A stretch of 44,428 nt of DNA from Isosphaera sp. (GTDB lineage Bacteria > Planctomycetota > Planctomycetia > Gemmatales > Gemmataceae), in assembly GCA_013822345.1 (NCBI GenBank), contig PNKH01000066.1, forward strand, positions 1 to 44,428, written 5' to 3'. Both the position numbers and the translations under genes were made by a program. Below, in pieces: positions 28,920-32,532 of the stretch (within the stretch, counting starts at the first letter, position 1; each line of letters opens with the position of its first letter). Under the pieces are notes generated by a model. That model saw only the letters and a program-made list of their open reading frames with translations, ran no database searches and was not told where the DNA came from.

Positions 28920-29480
28920 TCAGTCGCCGTGGATCTTCCGCAGTCGGGGCGACAGCCGCAGGATCCACTGCACCCGCTCGAACTCGTCGAGCCAGTCCTG
29001 CACCGCCCGCACCTGGACCGGGTCGTCCGCCTTCACCAGCCCGGTCGCGCACCCCTCCCCGGTCAGCCGTTCGACCAGCTCCCGGTACTTGGCCAGGGTC
29101 CGCTCGCCGTACCGGGCGACCTCATGCCCGTCCTCGGAGAAGAACACCGCGACCGGGACGCGGTTCCCGCCGTTGATCTTCAGCTCGGCCTGCACGTCGG
29201 CGTGCTCGTCCCGGTCGAGGTACCGGGTGACGACCACCGGGGCGGCCTCGGCGAACCGCTCGAACGCCGGGCACTGCGACGCGCAGTCCCCGCACCACGC
29301 CCCGGCCAGGACGAGGACGTTCGTCCGGCGGGTGAACTTGCCGAGGAGCTGCCGCTGGGCGTCGGTGAGGCGGGTCTGGTCGGCGGCCCGCTGCCACTTC
29401 GCCCGGTCGGCGTCGGACCCGTACCTCGCCAGGAACTCGGCCAGCGGCAGCCCGGCCGAAAACTTCTCGAACAGGTTCAT
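28920..29480 (-). CDS. thioredoxin-fold protein
   Basis: A 186-residue cytoplasmic protein. After an N-terminal helical part (MNLFEKFSAGLPLAEFLARYGSDADRAKWQ) comes a thioredoxin-like domain: strand NVLVLAGAWCGDCASQCP with the active-site motif WCGDC (Cys63, Cys66), strand VVVTRYLDRDEHADVQ, and the cis-proline segment NRVPVAVFFSEDG. A C-terminal helical extension follows. The ATG at 29480 is chosen for its binding site (GGAGGCGATCC); an upstream in-frame start would add glycine/proline-rich sequence. No signal peptide, so it is likely a cytoplasmic disulphide reductase. The exact partner is not identifiable. Confidence 0.8.
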   Translation of the reverse strand: MNLFEKFSAGLPLAEFLARYGSDADRAKWQRAADQTRLTDAQRQLLGKFTRRTNVLVLAGAWCGDCASQCPAFERFAEAAPVVVTRYLDRDEHADVQAELKINGGNRVPVAVFFSEDGHEVARYGERTLAKYRELVERLTGEGCATGLVKADDPVQVRAVQDWLDEFERVQWILRLSPRLRKIHGD

Positions 29481-29549
29481 GGGATCGCCTCCGCGCGGCC
29501 GCCACAACCCGGCACCACGTCCCGGCGTTGTTGGGCGTTCCGGATTTGG

Positions 29550-29557
29550 TATAGAAT
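29550..29557 (+). promoter_or_regulatory. candidate -10 box of the unknown/HEPN pair
   Basis: TATAGAAT lies 71 bases before the ATG at 29628, and four bases before a pair of direct repeats. It is one of the few AT-rich words in this divergent gap. A convincing -35 is not identified (TTGTTGGGC at 29529-29537 is near the right distance). Confidence 0.45.
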
Positions 29558-29560
29558 CCG

Positions 29561-29582
29561 GTGTGTACACCGTGTCTACACC
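29561..29582 (+). promoter_or_regulatory. tandem 11-bp direct repeat, candidate operator
   Basis: GTGTGTACACC (29561-29571) is directly followed by GTGTCTACACC (29572-29582), differing in one base; each unit is close to palindromic (GTGT-ACAC). The spacing of 11 bases is one helical turn, so a dimeric repressor could bind both units on one DNA face. It lies just after the candidate -10, a usual place for autoregulation of small operons. Confidence 0.5.
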
Positions 29583-29627
29583 TCGCCCGGGCCCCGACCC
29601 GCTACCCACCCGACCGGAGGTCTGACG

Positions 29628-30101
29628 ATGGCCGACGCCAGCGCCACCCGGCGGAGGTACGCCCGGCTGCACTTCACCGACGGCGAGGTGATCGTCACCC
29701 CGAAGGACCGGTACATCTTCCTGATCAGCGCGACTCGTGCGGCCGAGGCGTGCCGGGAAGCGGTGCGGGTGGACCAGCGGGTCCGGCAGTTCGAGTCGGA
29801 GTTACTGGTCCCGCTCCATTCCTGGTGCAAGGCCCGGGCCGGTAAGATCCGGGCGTGCTACCTCCCCCTGCCGGTCGGACACCTCCAGGTGTTCGCGGTC
29901 ACCAACAGCCCGGCGTACGACTTCGCACTCGGGGAGGAGATGGCGGCTCTGGAGCGGGAGTTGGCCCGGGCCGGCTGGCGGGTCGGGGTGTCGCAACTCC
30001 CCGCCACCGACCCGGCCACCCAGGAAACCTTCTTCAGCCCCGAAGGGGCGCTGGAGGTGTATGCCGACCGCGGACCAGCACCGGCGGAAGGCGGAGAGTA
30101 A
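29628..30101 (+). CDS. unknown small protein, first gene of a HEPN-containing pair
   Basis: A 157-residue soluble protein behind a good binding site (GGAGG) and a candidate operator. It starts basic (MADASATRRRYARLHFTDGEVIVTPKDRYIFLISATRAAEACREAV), then RVRQFESELLVPLHSWCKARAGKIRACYLPLPVGHLQVFAVTNSPAYDFALGEEMAALERELARAG, an alpha/beta arrangement without a known family. The following HEPN gene starts inside its last 41 bases. In other bacteria, HEPN genes of this size are often coupled to nucleotidyltransferase (MNT) antitoxins; this protein has no MNT motif, so it would be a different partner. Confidence 0.68.
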   Translation: MADASATRRRYARLHFTDGEVIVTPKDRYIFLISATRAAEACREAVRVDQRVRQFESELLVPLHSWCKARAGKIRACYLPLPVGHLQVFAVTNSPAYDFALGEEMAALERELARAGWRVGVSQLPATDPATQETFFSPEGALEVYADRGPAPAEGGE

Positions 30102-30435
30102 CCGCCGGTTCCTCGACACCATCTCCCGCGACGACTTCCCGGACTGGGTGGTCGTCGCGGCGTTCTACACCGCCGTCCACCTTGTGGAGCGCCTCCGGGC
30201 GTCCGCCGGCCACGGGCACAGCACCGGGCAAGAGGACCGGCTGGCCCACGTCCGGGAGTTCCACCCGGATGTCCACACCGCGTACCACCAGCTCCAGAAC
30301 GCCGCCTGGCTCGCCCGGTACCAGTCCCGGGCGGACTTCTTCGACCAGTTCCAACCGGAACAGGTGACCTCCCTCCTCGTCGGCCGGTACCTCGCCCAAC
30401 TCGAAGGGTACGTCGCCGACCGGCTCGACCGCTGA
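30061..30435 (+). CDS. small HEPN-domain protein
   Basis: A 124-residue helical protein of the HEPN superfamily: ESNRRFLDTISRDDFPDWVVVAAFYTAVHLVERLRASAGHGHS, then REFHPDVHTAYHQLQNAAWLARYQSRADFF. The AFYTAVHLVER helix followed by a Gly/His turn and the LQNAAWLARY helix is the usual layout of small HEPN proteins linked to toxin-antitoxin or defence loci. Its ATG is preceded by GGAGGTGT inside the previous gene, and the two frames overlap by 41 bases, so expression is coupled. A canonical R-x4-6-H dyad is not clearly present; nuclease activity is uncertain. A convergent gene ends six bases downstream. Confidence 0.68.
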   Translation: MPTADQHRRKAESNRRFLDTISRDDFPDWVVVAAFYTAVHLVERLRASAGHGHSTGQEDRLAHVREFHPDVHTAYHQLQNAAWLARYQSRADFFDQFQPEQVTSLLVGRYLAQLEGYVADRLDR

Positions 30436-30441
30436 CCGCGG

Positions 30442-32532
30442 TTACTTCTTGTCCTTCTTCGGCTCCTCCTTCTTCGCCTCGGCCTTCTTCGGCTCGGTCA
30501 CCTCGATCACGACCGGCGGCGGGGTCACCGCGTAGTCCTTCCCGCCGACCTTCGTCGTCGCCCGGAACACCAGCGGGACCGGGCCGGCGGCGGCCGCCGG
30601 AGCCACCGCCACCGCCGCCTCCCCCTTCGTCTGCCCCTTCGCGATCGGCTTCGGGGTCGCCGTCACGTTCGCCGGCAATGACAGCGCCGCGACGACGATG
30701 TCCCCGTCCGCCGCCTTCTCCCGGGTCGCCTCGAACACCACCTTCCCCGCCTTCCCCTTCTCGACCGAGGCCGGGTCGGCCGTCAGCGTCAGCGCGAACG
30801 CCGGCGCCTCCACCACCGCCGCCGCGCACCCGGTCAGCAGCTCCGCCGGCGGGTTCGGCATCCCCCCGAGCGCCGCCTTCACCGGGTCGAGCAGTGTCCC
30901 GAACCGCACCACCTCCTTCCCGTCCGCCCCGGGGATCGTCGCCTTCACCCGGTACGGGTACGCCCCCGGCTTCGTCCCCTCCTTCGCCAGCAGCGGCACG
31001 AACGTGAACGCCTGCCCGGCCGGGAGCGTCGCCTTTCCCCCCAGGGCGTCCCCGCCGGCGATGCTCAACTCCACCGGCCCGGCGTACCCGTTCAGCCGGG
31101 TCACCGTCGCCAGCACCGCCGTCCCGCCGCCGGCCGGCGCCTCGCACCGGTCGAGGGCCAGCGCCACCGCCACGTCCGGCCCGGCCGGGGTCACCGCCAG
31201 GTGGTACACCTCGTTCGGCCCGGACAGGTAGTTCAGGTGCTCGCAGGCGACCGTGTACACCCCGTCCGCGGCCGGGGTGAACTCGGCCCGCGCGGCCGGC
31301 TGCTTCGGGTCGCTCCGGGCCACCTCCGCCCCCTTCGGGTCGAGCACCCGGACGAGTACCTCGGCCGGCGAGTTCAGCTCGAACGTGGTCGCCGCGGCCG
31401 CGTACTTCAACCCCTTCTTGCAGGCCACCGCGAAGCAGTCCACGTCCCCGGCCTTCTCGAACCGCCCCGACACCCCGCCCGGCACCGGCAGCGGATTCGC
31501 CGCCTTCGCGTCGTTGTTCGGCTCATGCTCCGCCGCCTCCGGCCAGTCGCTCAGCCGCACCGGCACCGGCCACCCGGCGACGCCCGCGGCCCGCTTCGGG
31601 GCGACGTACACCGCCGCCACCCCGGGGTCGGCCGGGGCCTTCACGTCCACCGGCGGGAGGTCGGCGGCGCCCGGCCCGGCGAACCCGATCTTCGCCGCCT
31701 GGCCGCGCTGGGCCGCCACCGGGAACGCGGTCGTCGCCCCGGGGAACTCGCCGACCCGCAGCCGGTAGAAGAAGTCCGCCCCGCCGCGGTACGTCGTGTC
31801 GCGCACCTCGACCAGGAACTCGCCGCCGTCCTTGAACGTGTGCGTCAGCCGGCAGTCGGCCTGCAGCCCGGGGGTGTCGTCGGCGTACAGGTCGATCAGC
31901 TCGCGCTTCGTCTTCGCGTCGTGCAGCACCACGATCGGGTCGAGCGGCGAGCCGATCCGCCGGGCCAGCACCTCGAACGTCAGCGTCTGCCCGGCGGCCG
32001 CCTTCACCTTGAAGAAGTCGCTCGCCTCGGCGTCCGCCCGCCCGGTCACGACCGCCGGCAGCGGCACCGGCTGGGCCGCGTCCTTCGTCCGGTTCGCGTC
32101 GGTCTCGGCGACCACCGGCAGGGTGTCGACGACGAACGGGCGGAAGTTCGAGACGCCGTTCCTGGTGGCGACCCGGACGGCGTGCAGCCCCGGCGGGCAG
32201 TCGGCCGGCAGCTCGACCTTCACCCGCAGCTTCGCCGCGTCGGTGCCGTTCTTGTTGTCGGTCGGGATCGTCGCCTTCCCCGGGCAGCTCAGGAACACGG
32301 CGACGGGGTCGGCGAGGTTGGTGCCGGTGAGGGCGAGCTCGACCGCCTCGCCCGGCTTCGCCCCGAGGTTGGCCGGGGAGGTGAGGGTCGGGGCCTGCGG
32401 GGCCGGGAGGATGGCCGGCTGCTTCGGCTGGCTGCGGGCCTGGCGGACGTCGGCGGACAGGAAGACGACCGCGGACAGGCCGGCGGCGAACCCGGCGAGC
32501 GCGGCCACCCGGGACGGACGGCGGCGGGACAT
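30442..32532 (-). CDS. secreted pre-peptidase C-terminal (PPC) type protein
   Basis: A 696-residue exported protein. The signal peptide (MSRRRPSRVAALAGFAAGLSAVVFLSADVRQARS) is followed by an IPT/TIG-like domain (PTLTSPANLGAKPGEAVELALTGTNL), two PPC-type beta domains (ASDFFKVKAAAGQTLTFEVLARRIGSPLDPIVVL... and EHEPNNDAKAANPLPVPGGVSGRFEKAGDVDCFAVACK), further Ig-like strands, and a lysine-rich tail (KKAEAKKEEPKKDKK). The EPNN-x-F/A pattern and D-x-D-x-F segment are typical of planctomycete PPC proteins. No protease domain is present. Likely an envelope protein that binds a ligand or partner. Confidence 0.82.
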   Translation of the reverse strand: MSRRRPSRVAALAGFAAGLSAVVFLSADVRQARSQPKQPAILPAPQAPTLTSPANLGAKPGEAVELALTGTNLADPVAVFLSCPGKATIPTDNKNGTDAAKLRVKVELPADCPPGLHAVRVATRNGVSNFRPFVVDTLPVVAETDANRTKDAAQPVPLPAVVTGRADAEASDFFKVKAAAGQTLTFEVLARRIGSPLDPIVVLHDAKTKRELIDLYADDTPGLQADCRLTHTFKDGGEFLVEVRDTTYRGGADFFYRLRVGEFPGATTAFPVAAQRGQAAKIGFAGPGAADLPPVDVKAPADPGVAAVYVAPKRAAGVAGWPVPVRLSDWPEAAEHEPNNDAKAANPLPVPGGVSGRFEKAGDVDCFAVACKKGLKYAAAATTFELNSPAEVLVRVLDPKGAEVARSDPKQPAARAEFTPAADGVYTVACEHLNYLSGPNEVYHLAVTPAGPDVAVALALDRCEAPAGGGTAVLATVTRLNGYAGPVELSIAGGDALGGKATLPAGQAFTFVPLLAKEGTKPGAYPYRVKATIPGADGKEVVRFGTLLDPVKAALGGMPNPPAELLTGCAAAVVEAPAFALTLTADPASVEKGKAGKVVFEATREKAADGDIVVAALSLPANVTATPKPIAKGQTKGEAAVAVAPAAAAGPVPLVFRATTKVGGKDYAVTPPPVVIEVTEPKKAEAKKEEPKKDKK

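Follow-up and report, generated by a model that had tools for sequence, protein, structure and literature searches.

A conserved gene pair of Planctomycetota encoding a HEPN-fold protein and a predicted MNT-fold partner without the signature motifs of type VII toxin-antitoxin systems

Introduction

HEPN/MNT has been described as the most abundant predicted toxin-antitoxin system of prokaryotes, and polyadenylylation is regarded as necessary for neutralisation within it (PMC7641770; this and all other sources are cited from excerpts). In type VII systems, the MNT antitoxin uses a GSX10DXD motif to AMPylate the tyrosine of the RX4HXY motif (PMC7641770, PMC11586414). A motif-mutated MNT of S. oneidensis still bound HepT and neutralised it less, and binding was judged not sufficient (PMC7641770).

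Two further systems bear on the locus described here. HEPN-T proteins of the AF0298 type keep the arginine and have lost the histidine of Rx4-6H; they carry another strongly conserved histidine between helices 2 and 3, which could form an alternative active site (PMC3710099). MafI2, an immunity protein of the Neisseria maf islands, inhibits an RNase by binding, blocking its substrate site (PMC9970974).

Among the titles and abstracts searched, in which subscription journals are little covered, no pair like the present one (P1-P2) was found described; the exact phrases 'inactive MNT' and 'pseudo-nucleotidyltransferase' were not found in connection with HEPN.

Results

The window, which is the whole stretch of DNA analysed (44,428 nucleotides of Isosphaera sp., contig PNKH01000066.1), is part of a 7.5-Mb genome in 226 contigs, whose relatives in a collection of named genomes are Planctomycetota such as Gemmataceae and Fimbriiglobus. 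The original prediction described two small genes coupled by a 41-base overlap, and the reading frames confirm this, both on the + strand. The features of the locus are:

29550..29555, + strand: TATAGA, -10-like, a promoter candidate only (from the sequence; no site in the promoter scan)
29561..29582, + strand: two 11-base units, GTGTGTACACC and GTGTCTACACC, private to the window copy and with no supported function (pattern search)
29616..29621, + strand: GGAGGT, likely ribosome-binding site of P1 (by eye)
29628..30101, + strand: P1, 157 aa, predicted MNT-fold (alpha-beta-beta-alpha-beta) partner without GSX10DXD (open reading frame and translation, AlphaFold2, PDB matches, motif count, relatives)
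29781..30074, + strand: MNT-like core of P1, residues 52-149, spanned by the structural matches (structure alignment of the model)
30053..30058, + strand: GGAGGT, putative ribosome-binding site of P2, inside P1 (sequence)
30061..30101, + strand: overlap of P1 and P2, 41 bases (open reading frame coordinates)
30061..30435, + strand: P2, 124 aa, HEPN-fold protein, AF0298-like (open reading frame and translation, AlphaFold2, VIA alignment to 2hsb)
30229..30231, + strand: P2 codon 57, CAA (Gln), in a column that is His in 33/35 relatives (alignment)
30316..30321, + strand: P2 codons 86-87, Arg-Tyr, identical in 35/35 (alignment)
30427..30443, + strand: weak terminator-like hairpin after P2 (scan; 1 found, 0.6 expected in shuffles)

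Upstream of P1, in divergent orientation, is a thioredoxin-like gene (PF14595, E 9.6e-25), and the gene downstream of P2 is on the opposite strand. The overlap recurs in 20 of the 26 genome loci compared, the start codon being the one closest to where the profile match begins, and measures 41 bases in five of these 20. Together with the partner-first gene order, this overlap suits coupled translation of a restrained toxin.

Relatives of P1 occur in 32 distinct Planctomycetota genomes, the window's own included. A single-protein query detected them in 9 of the 95 genomes searched within the family. The profile searches scored only the best candidates of the first look (10 to 38 per genome), and their tallies are lower bounds: at least 15 of 102 genomes of the order, 22 of 297 of the class and 11 of 392 of the phylum sample, these samples overlapping. 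In all 32 genomes, a P2-like gene or its remains stands directly behind P1 on the same strand. The original prediction was to be abandoned if the two genes were not conserved as neighbours; they are neighbours throughout. Some copies are broken: P1 in one genome (G065), and P2 by an in-frame stop (G095), by a frame change (G017, G416) or by absence of its N-terminal part (G662).

P2-like genes were found in at least 17 of the 392 genomes of the phylum sample, 11 of them with P1. The other six matches are weak (E 1e-17 to 4e-4). Five of these (G231, G246, G393, G446, G475) have an upstream gene that by eye shows a strand-strand-helix-strand pattern and that the P1 profile misses in every case; the sixth (G162) is a fragment. 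Against 30 canonical MNT loci, the P1 and P2 profiles found nothing. Mirror-tree comparison of P1 and P2 gives r 0.684, a value reached in none of 2000 permutations, and the nearest partner is the same for 14 of 24 pairs, a signal that could be explained by common descent alone. The pair is a real, conserved module.

Two loci carry additional features. Genome G008 has a second P1 copy (L011:161-520, G008:C462), truncated and without P2, beside a transposase-like frame; both P1 copies of this genome follow a similar oxidoreductase-like gene (both by eye). In G006, a 302-aa protein with no Pfam family directly follows the pair (L010:2260-3168) and contains a stretch reminiscent, by eye, of restriction-type nucleases.

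The downstream protein had been called HEPN, and its predicted structure bears this out in both Foldseek and VIA, without support from Pfam, NCBIfam or PADLOC models. The AlphaFold2 model of P2 (pLDDT 96.2, pTM 0.90) is a helical bundle. Its top structural match in VIA is AF0298 (2hsb; Z 15.9, 117 residues, 2.3 A), followed by sacsin HEPN (13.8), ST0689 (12.8) and HepT proteins (about 10.8), with unrelated bundles from 7.3; the Foldseek E-values are weak, the best being 0.035. P2 has no match above cut-off in Pfam, NCBIfam, PADLOC or PHROGs, nor have 13 of its relatives in Pfam, and PF05168 matches neither P2 nor 12 other members of its set (A4). A sequence search of the PDB returned nothing for P2, and profile comparison with canonical HepT leaves the link unsupported (p 0.16).

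An alignment of 35 P2 proteins shows the most conserved residues; it excludes a fragment, copies that are broken, the duplicate in L100 and the seven loci found last. Trp29, Tyr36, Arg86 and Tyr87 are identical in all 35; Asn14 and Phe35 are found in 34, the His of column 57 and Ser82 in 33, Arg60 in 31, His7 in 30 and His40 in 29. RX4HXY is absent from all 35, while RxxxxHxY is present in 12 of 12 aligned canonical HEPN partners. R-x4-6-H starting from Arg86, which was equated with the motif arginine by position and not by residue alignment, occurs in one of 35, L074, as R-x4-H without the Tyr.

These features fit the description of the AF0298 type: in the P2 family the arginine is kept, the histidine of Rx4-6H is lost, and the His of column 57, which marks the start of helix 3 in the model, is a candidate for the one described between helices 2 and 3, being present in 33 of 35 and replaced by Gln in the window copy. 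By helix order, one end of the up-down bundle should hold residues 7, 40, 57, 60, 86 and 87. Arg86 and His57 are thus candidates for an alternative active site of the family. Differences from AF0298 are the failure of PF05168 to match P2, the partner without an MNT motif, and the lack of the alternative histidine in the window copy, which itself has Gln57 and Ala82. As Gln57 takes the place of a candidate catalytic His that almost every relative has, the window copy may be weakened as a toxin.

The missing canonical histidine, together with the missing alternative one in the window copy, also bears on whether P2 is a nuclease at all. The pair could be a non-toxic regulatory or RNA-binding heterodimer containing a HEPN protein without nuclease activity, like domesticated HEPN/MNT pairs. 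A 2013 survey proposes that motif-less HEPN domains are probably RNA-binding only (PMC3710099). However, Arg86, Tyr36, Trp29 and Tyr87 are invariant, and the patchy, transferred distribution and the broken copies better suit a dispensable mobile module. We consider a non-toxic heterodimer rather unlikely.

For the upstream protein, the original prediction of 'not an MNT antitoxin' stands at the level of sequence families and motif, and probably gives way at the level of fold. P1 has no match above cut-off in Pfam, NCBIfam, PADLOC or PHROGs, nor have 14 relatives in Pfam; against the PDB by sequence, it has one chance-level match (E 0.69). The AlphaFold2 model (pLDDT 86.9, pTM 0.66) consists of a long helix (residues 25-69) followed by strand, strand, helix and strand. 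In Foldseek against the PDB, ranks 1-7 are all MNT proteins (about five entries from HEPN/MNT toxin-antitoxin systems and about two HI0073), with a best E of 0.01 at prob 1.00 and no match at E <= 0.001. VIA-align places 8xeh_E first (Z 9.1, 94 residues, 3.6 A, model range 52-149), then 8xeo_B (8.9), MafI2 (8hhj, 8.3), 1ylq (8.2), 1no5 (8.0) and the rest from 7.8 down. Unrelated three-strand folds come near the MNT scores, with MafI2 at 8.3, the zinc-transporter CzrB at 7.2 and ribosomal S3 at about 7. Since a best Z of 7-8 is typical in VIA even without a true match, the margin of the P1-MNT match is small. From the model, the fold of P1 is probably MNT, and the supposed 'new partner type' looks less like a new type than like a motif-less version of a known one.

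Sequence profiles give a similarly faint signal. Aligned by hhalign with 23 canonical MNTs, P1 is in register, with probabilities of 1.2% (A3, 14 P1 proteins) and 3.5% (A6, 28 P1 proteins). The P1-MNT profile score is 19.9, whereas 40 column-shuffles gave no more than 15.0 and a reversed profile 12.1.

MafI2 offers another origin for P1: an independent small alpha-beta inhibitor of the same topology that was never an MNT. It ranks third in VIA, tied with the MNTs within 1, it is likewise a small alpha-beta protein, and it inhibits an RNase by binding. Its toxin, however, has an RNase A fold, not HEPN, and the toxin gene comes first, whereas both the partner and the gene order of P1 are those of HEPN/MNT, and the profile score exceeds the shuffles. 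An independent inhibitor is unlikely, and descent of P1 from an MNT is the reading followed below.

The GSX10DXD motif, sought as GS-x8-14-D-h-[DE], is present in 23 of 23 canonical MNTs and in none of 28 P1 relatives, a set that includes three Chloroflexota proteins picked by eye. A looser expression, G[SGA]-x7-15-D-x-[DE], composed before the stricter one, occurs in 6 of the 28, in positions other than that of the MNT site. No residue is invariant in the 28 aligned P1 proteins; hence there is no invariant acidic residue. This argues against a hidden type VII system in which P1 would still transfer a nucleotide with relocated residues. The MNT-like predicted fold of P1 and the invariant Tyr87 of P2 are compatible with such transfer, but the donor motif is absent from all 28 P1 and the acceptor motif from all 35 P2 proteins, making it very improbable.

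The pair resembles HepT/MntA in having two small co-oriented genes, a probable MNT-fold partner upstream and a HEPN-fold protein downstream, overlapping reading frames and a mobile distribution. The two-gene order of type VII, with the MNT-like gene upstream of HEPN, is found in 32 of 32 genomes, the operon being putative, and P2 has the HEPN fold in its predicted structure. It differs from HepT/MntA in that P1 lacks GSX10DXD, P2 lacks RX4HXY and neither protein has a Pfam match to MNT or HEPN. Since these two motifs define type VII and both were sought and found missing, the pair, judged by sequence, is not a type VII member. The best reading is a variant of HEPN/MNT, the novelty of which is limited by the weak P1-MNT sequence link.

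More distant relatives extend the comparison. In three Chloroflexota loci (L094-L096), the partners are P1-like by eye and are missed by the A3 profile; their profile-profile p values are 0.054 to P1, 0.056 to MNT, 0.0036 to the A7 group and 0.35 to a HEPN control. Matches of A6 on these loci are circular because the three proteins are among its 28 rows. L098, which is outside A6, gives 0.02 with A3, and no P1 was found by profile at L097. The A7 group comprises the partners of distant HEPN genes in L055, L058 and L059 and aligns both with P1 (p 0.0021) and with MNT (p 0.0023); its shuffle control against A6 was set aside, as 1 of 40 shuffles scored 126.3 against a real score of 23.7. In L055 (648-1911), three genes form a row: a DUF6941 gene (PF22091, E 4.2e-18), a small strand-strand-helix-strand protein (A7) and, third, the distant HEPN. 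The first gene of the row is similar by eye in L058 and L059.

The toxin-antitoxin-like layout originally predicted holds for the pair and its conserved neighbourhood, and lacks support for the operator. Two 11-bp units do follow directly after a -10-like box, as described. However, a promoter scan of 29400-30700 found no sigma-70-like site, and the repeat unit, sought in 29 loci and the window's own genome, is not conserved: at <=1 mismatch it is absent from all 31 other 250-base stretches upstream of relatives, an outcome that the original prediction had named as refuting it. Nor are repeats of this kind clearly commoner in the window than in randomised sequence. Exact matches to GTGTNTACACC in the window are these two units alone, and the 22-mer occurs once in the whole genome at <=3 mismatches, plus its own reverse reading. 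Tandem 11-mers with <=1 mismatch number 1 in the window and 0-5 (mean 2.0) in 20 first-order Markov sequences. Tandem units of 9-13 with a 5-bp inverted repeat give 6 rows in the window, three of them one place, and 0-12 (mean 4.8) in 30 randomised sequences. The repeat unit at <=1 mismatch, a pattern picked after it had been seen, has 3 window matches against a mean of 1.03, and 11 of 100 shuffles reach 3. Together, the upstream regions and randomised controls leave a conserved operator unsupported.

P1 has no match to a DNA-binding family in Pfam or NCBIfam, nor have its relatives in Pfam. Operators change quickly, and one MNT antitoxin in which no DNA-binding domain is recognised has been reported to bind its own promoter, which has two dissimilar palindromes (PMC4621449). 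For these reasons, the pair may still be autoregulated.

The pair appears to be transferable. When 24 pairs were concatenated and placed in a tree, the window's genus, with five rows, did not form one clade (p-AU 2.4e-63); the same holds for the three closest rows of that genus (4.7e-5) and for the two rows of another genus, g6 (p-AU 4e-4). Among these rows one sits on a long branch, and ancient duplication and loss instead of transfer is a possible alternative.

Three viral contigs carry the P1-P2 pair. In L099, it lies between genes for a portal (phrog_145, E 7.2e-18) and a head scaffolding protein (1.1e-11); in L101, it lies upstream of genes for a portal (9.7e-84) and a head maturation protease (1.3e-61). 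The pair in L100 is the one found in genome G011; three of the four neighbours examined in L100 have no PHROG match, and the fourth matches an Ig-domain family. In L099 (2765-7160) and L101 (4547-8754), two uncultivated phage contigs, the pair thus appears as cargo within the block of head genes, where a toxin-antitoxin-like module is unusual. A plasmid collection contained no match for P1, P2 or a Chloroflexota P2, and a named-phage collection none for P2 or a viral-contig P2.

The position beside portal genes in two viral contigs would also suit a sensor-effector pair rather than an addiction module, in which P1 keeps P2 off and releases it on a phage component or metabolite, giving abortive infection or superinfection exclusion. 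Prophage HEPN proteins are known to act in this manner, as with Tha in S. aureus (PMC11087260). Weighing against it, no trigger was found, PADLOC gave no defence-family match, and no defence island is evident by eye around the pair. Genomic neighbourhoods inspected by eye share no theme, except that in G017 and G019 a response-regulator-like gene precedes the pair. A sensor-effector role is unlikely.

Discussion

Taken in aggregate, these data suggest a toxin-antitoxin-like pair that descends from HEPN/MNT and no longer has its chemistry: a HEPN toxin of the RNase type would be restrained by the binding of a non-catalytic MNT-fold partner. Our confidence in this explanation is evenly balanced. 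P2, a HEPN fold of the AF0298 kind, would most likely act as a toxin that cuts RNA or at least binds it. P1, made first from the upstream overlapping gene, would most likely restrain it by binding and not by AMPylation, since a switch to neutralisation by binding is the simplest reading of the absence of both donor and acceptor motifs. Compared with the S. oneidensis pair, P1 and P2 would have to bind each other more tightly or at other places, and the long helix near the N-terminus of P1 could provide for this. Being transferred between genomes and carried by phages, the module would probably serve the maintenance of, or exclusion by, mobile elements.

The direct basis for this proposal is the strict pairing and order, the overlap, the predicted folds, the absence of both signature motifs, the transfer between genera and the presence in phage capsid regions; from these we infer RNase activity, toxicity, neutralisation by binding and any anti-phage role. 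Several observations weigh against this explanation: the weak P1-MNT sequence link, the lack of a Foldseek match at E <= 0.001, the near scores of unrelated folds, the P2-HepT p of 0.16, the insufficiency of binding in S. oneidensis, Gln57 in the window copy and the lack of an evident defence island.

In its broader form, the proposal describes a widespread, unnamed HEPN branch whose antitoxin turned from enzyme to binder, with both motifs lost, in Planctomycetota and, on looser evidence, Chloroflexota, and carried in phage capsid blocks. This wider claim is tentative, and we place it a little short of even. If true, the enzymatic step of HEPN/MNT can be dropped or replaced, as an MNT-like partner and a HEPN protein would persist together after both motifs were lost. 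These pairs open a direct test of whether binding alone suffices. A family that is unnamed in the libraries searched would thereby gain a function, and the proposal would explain why phages retain it beside their capsid genes.
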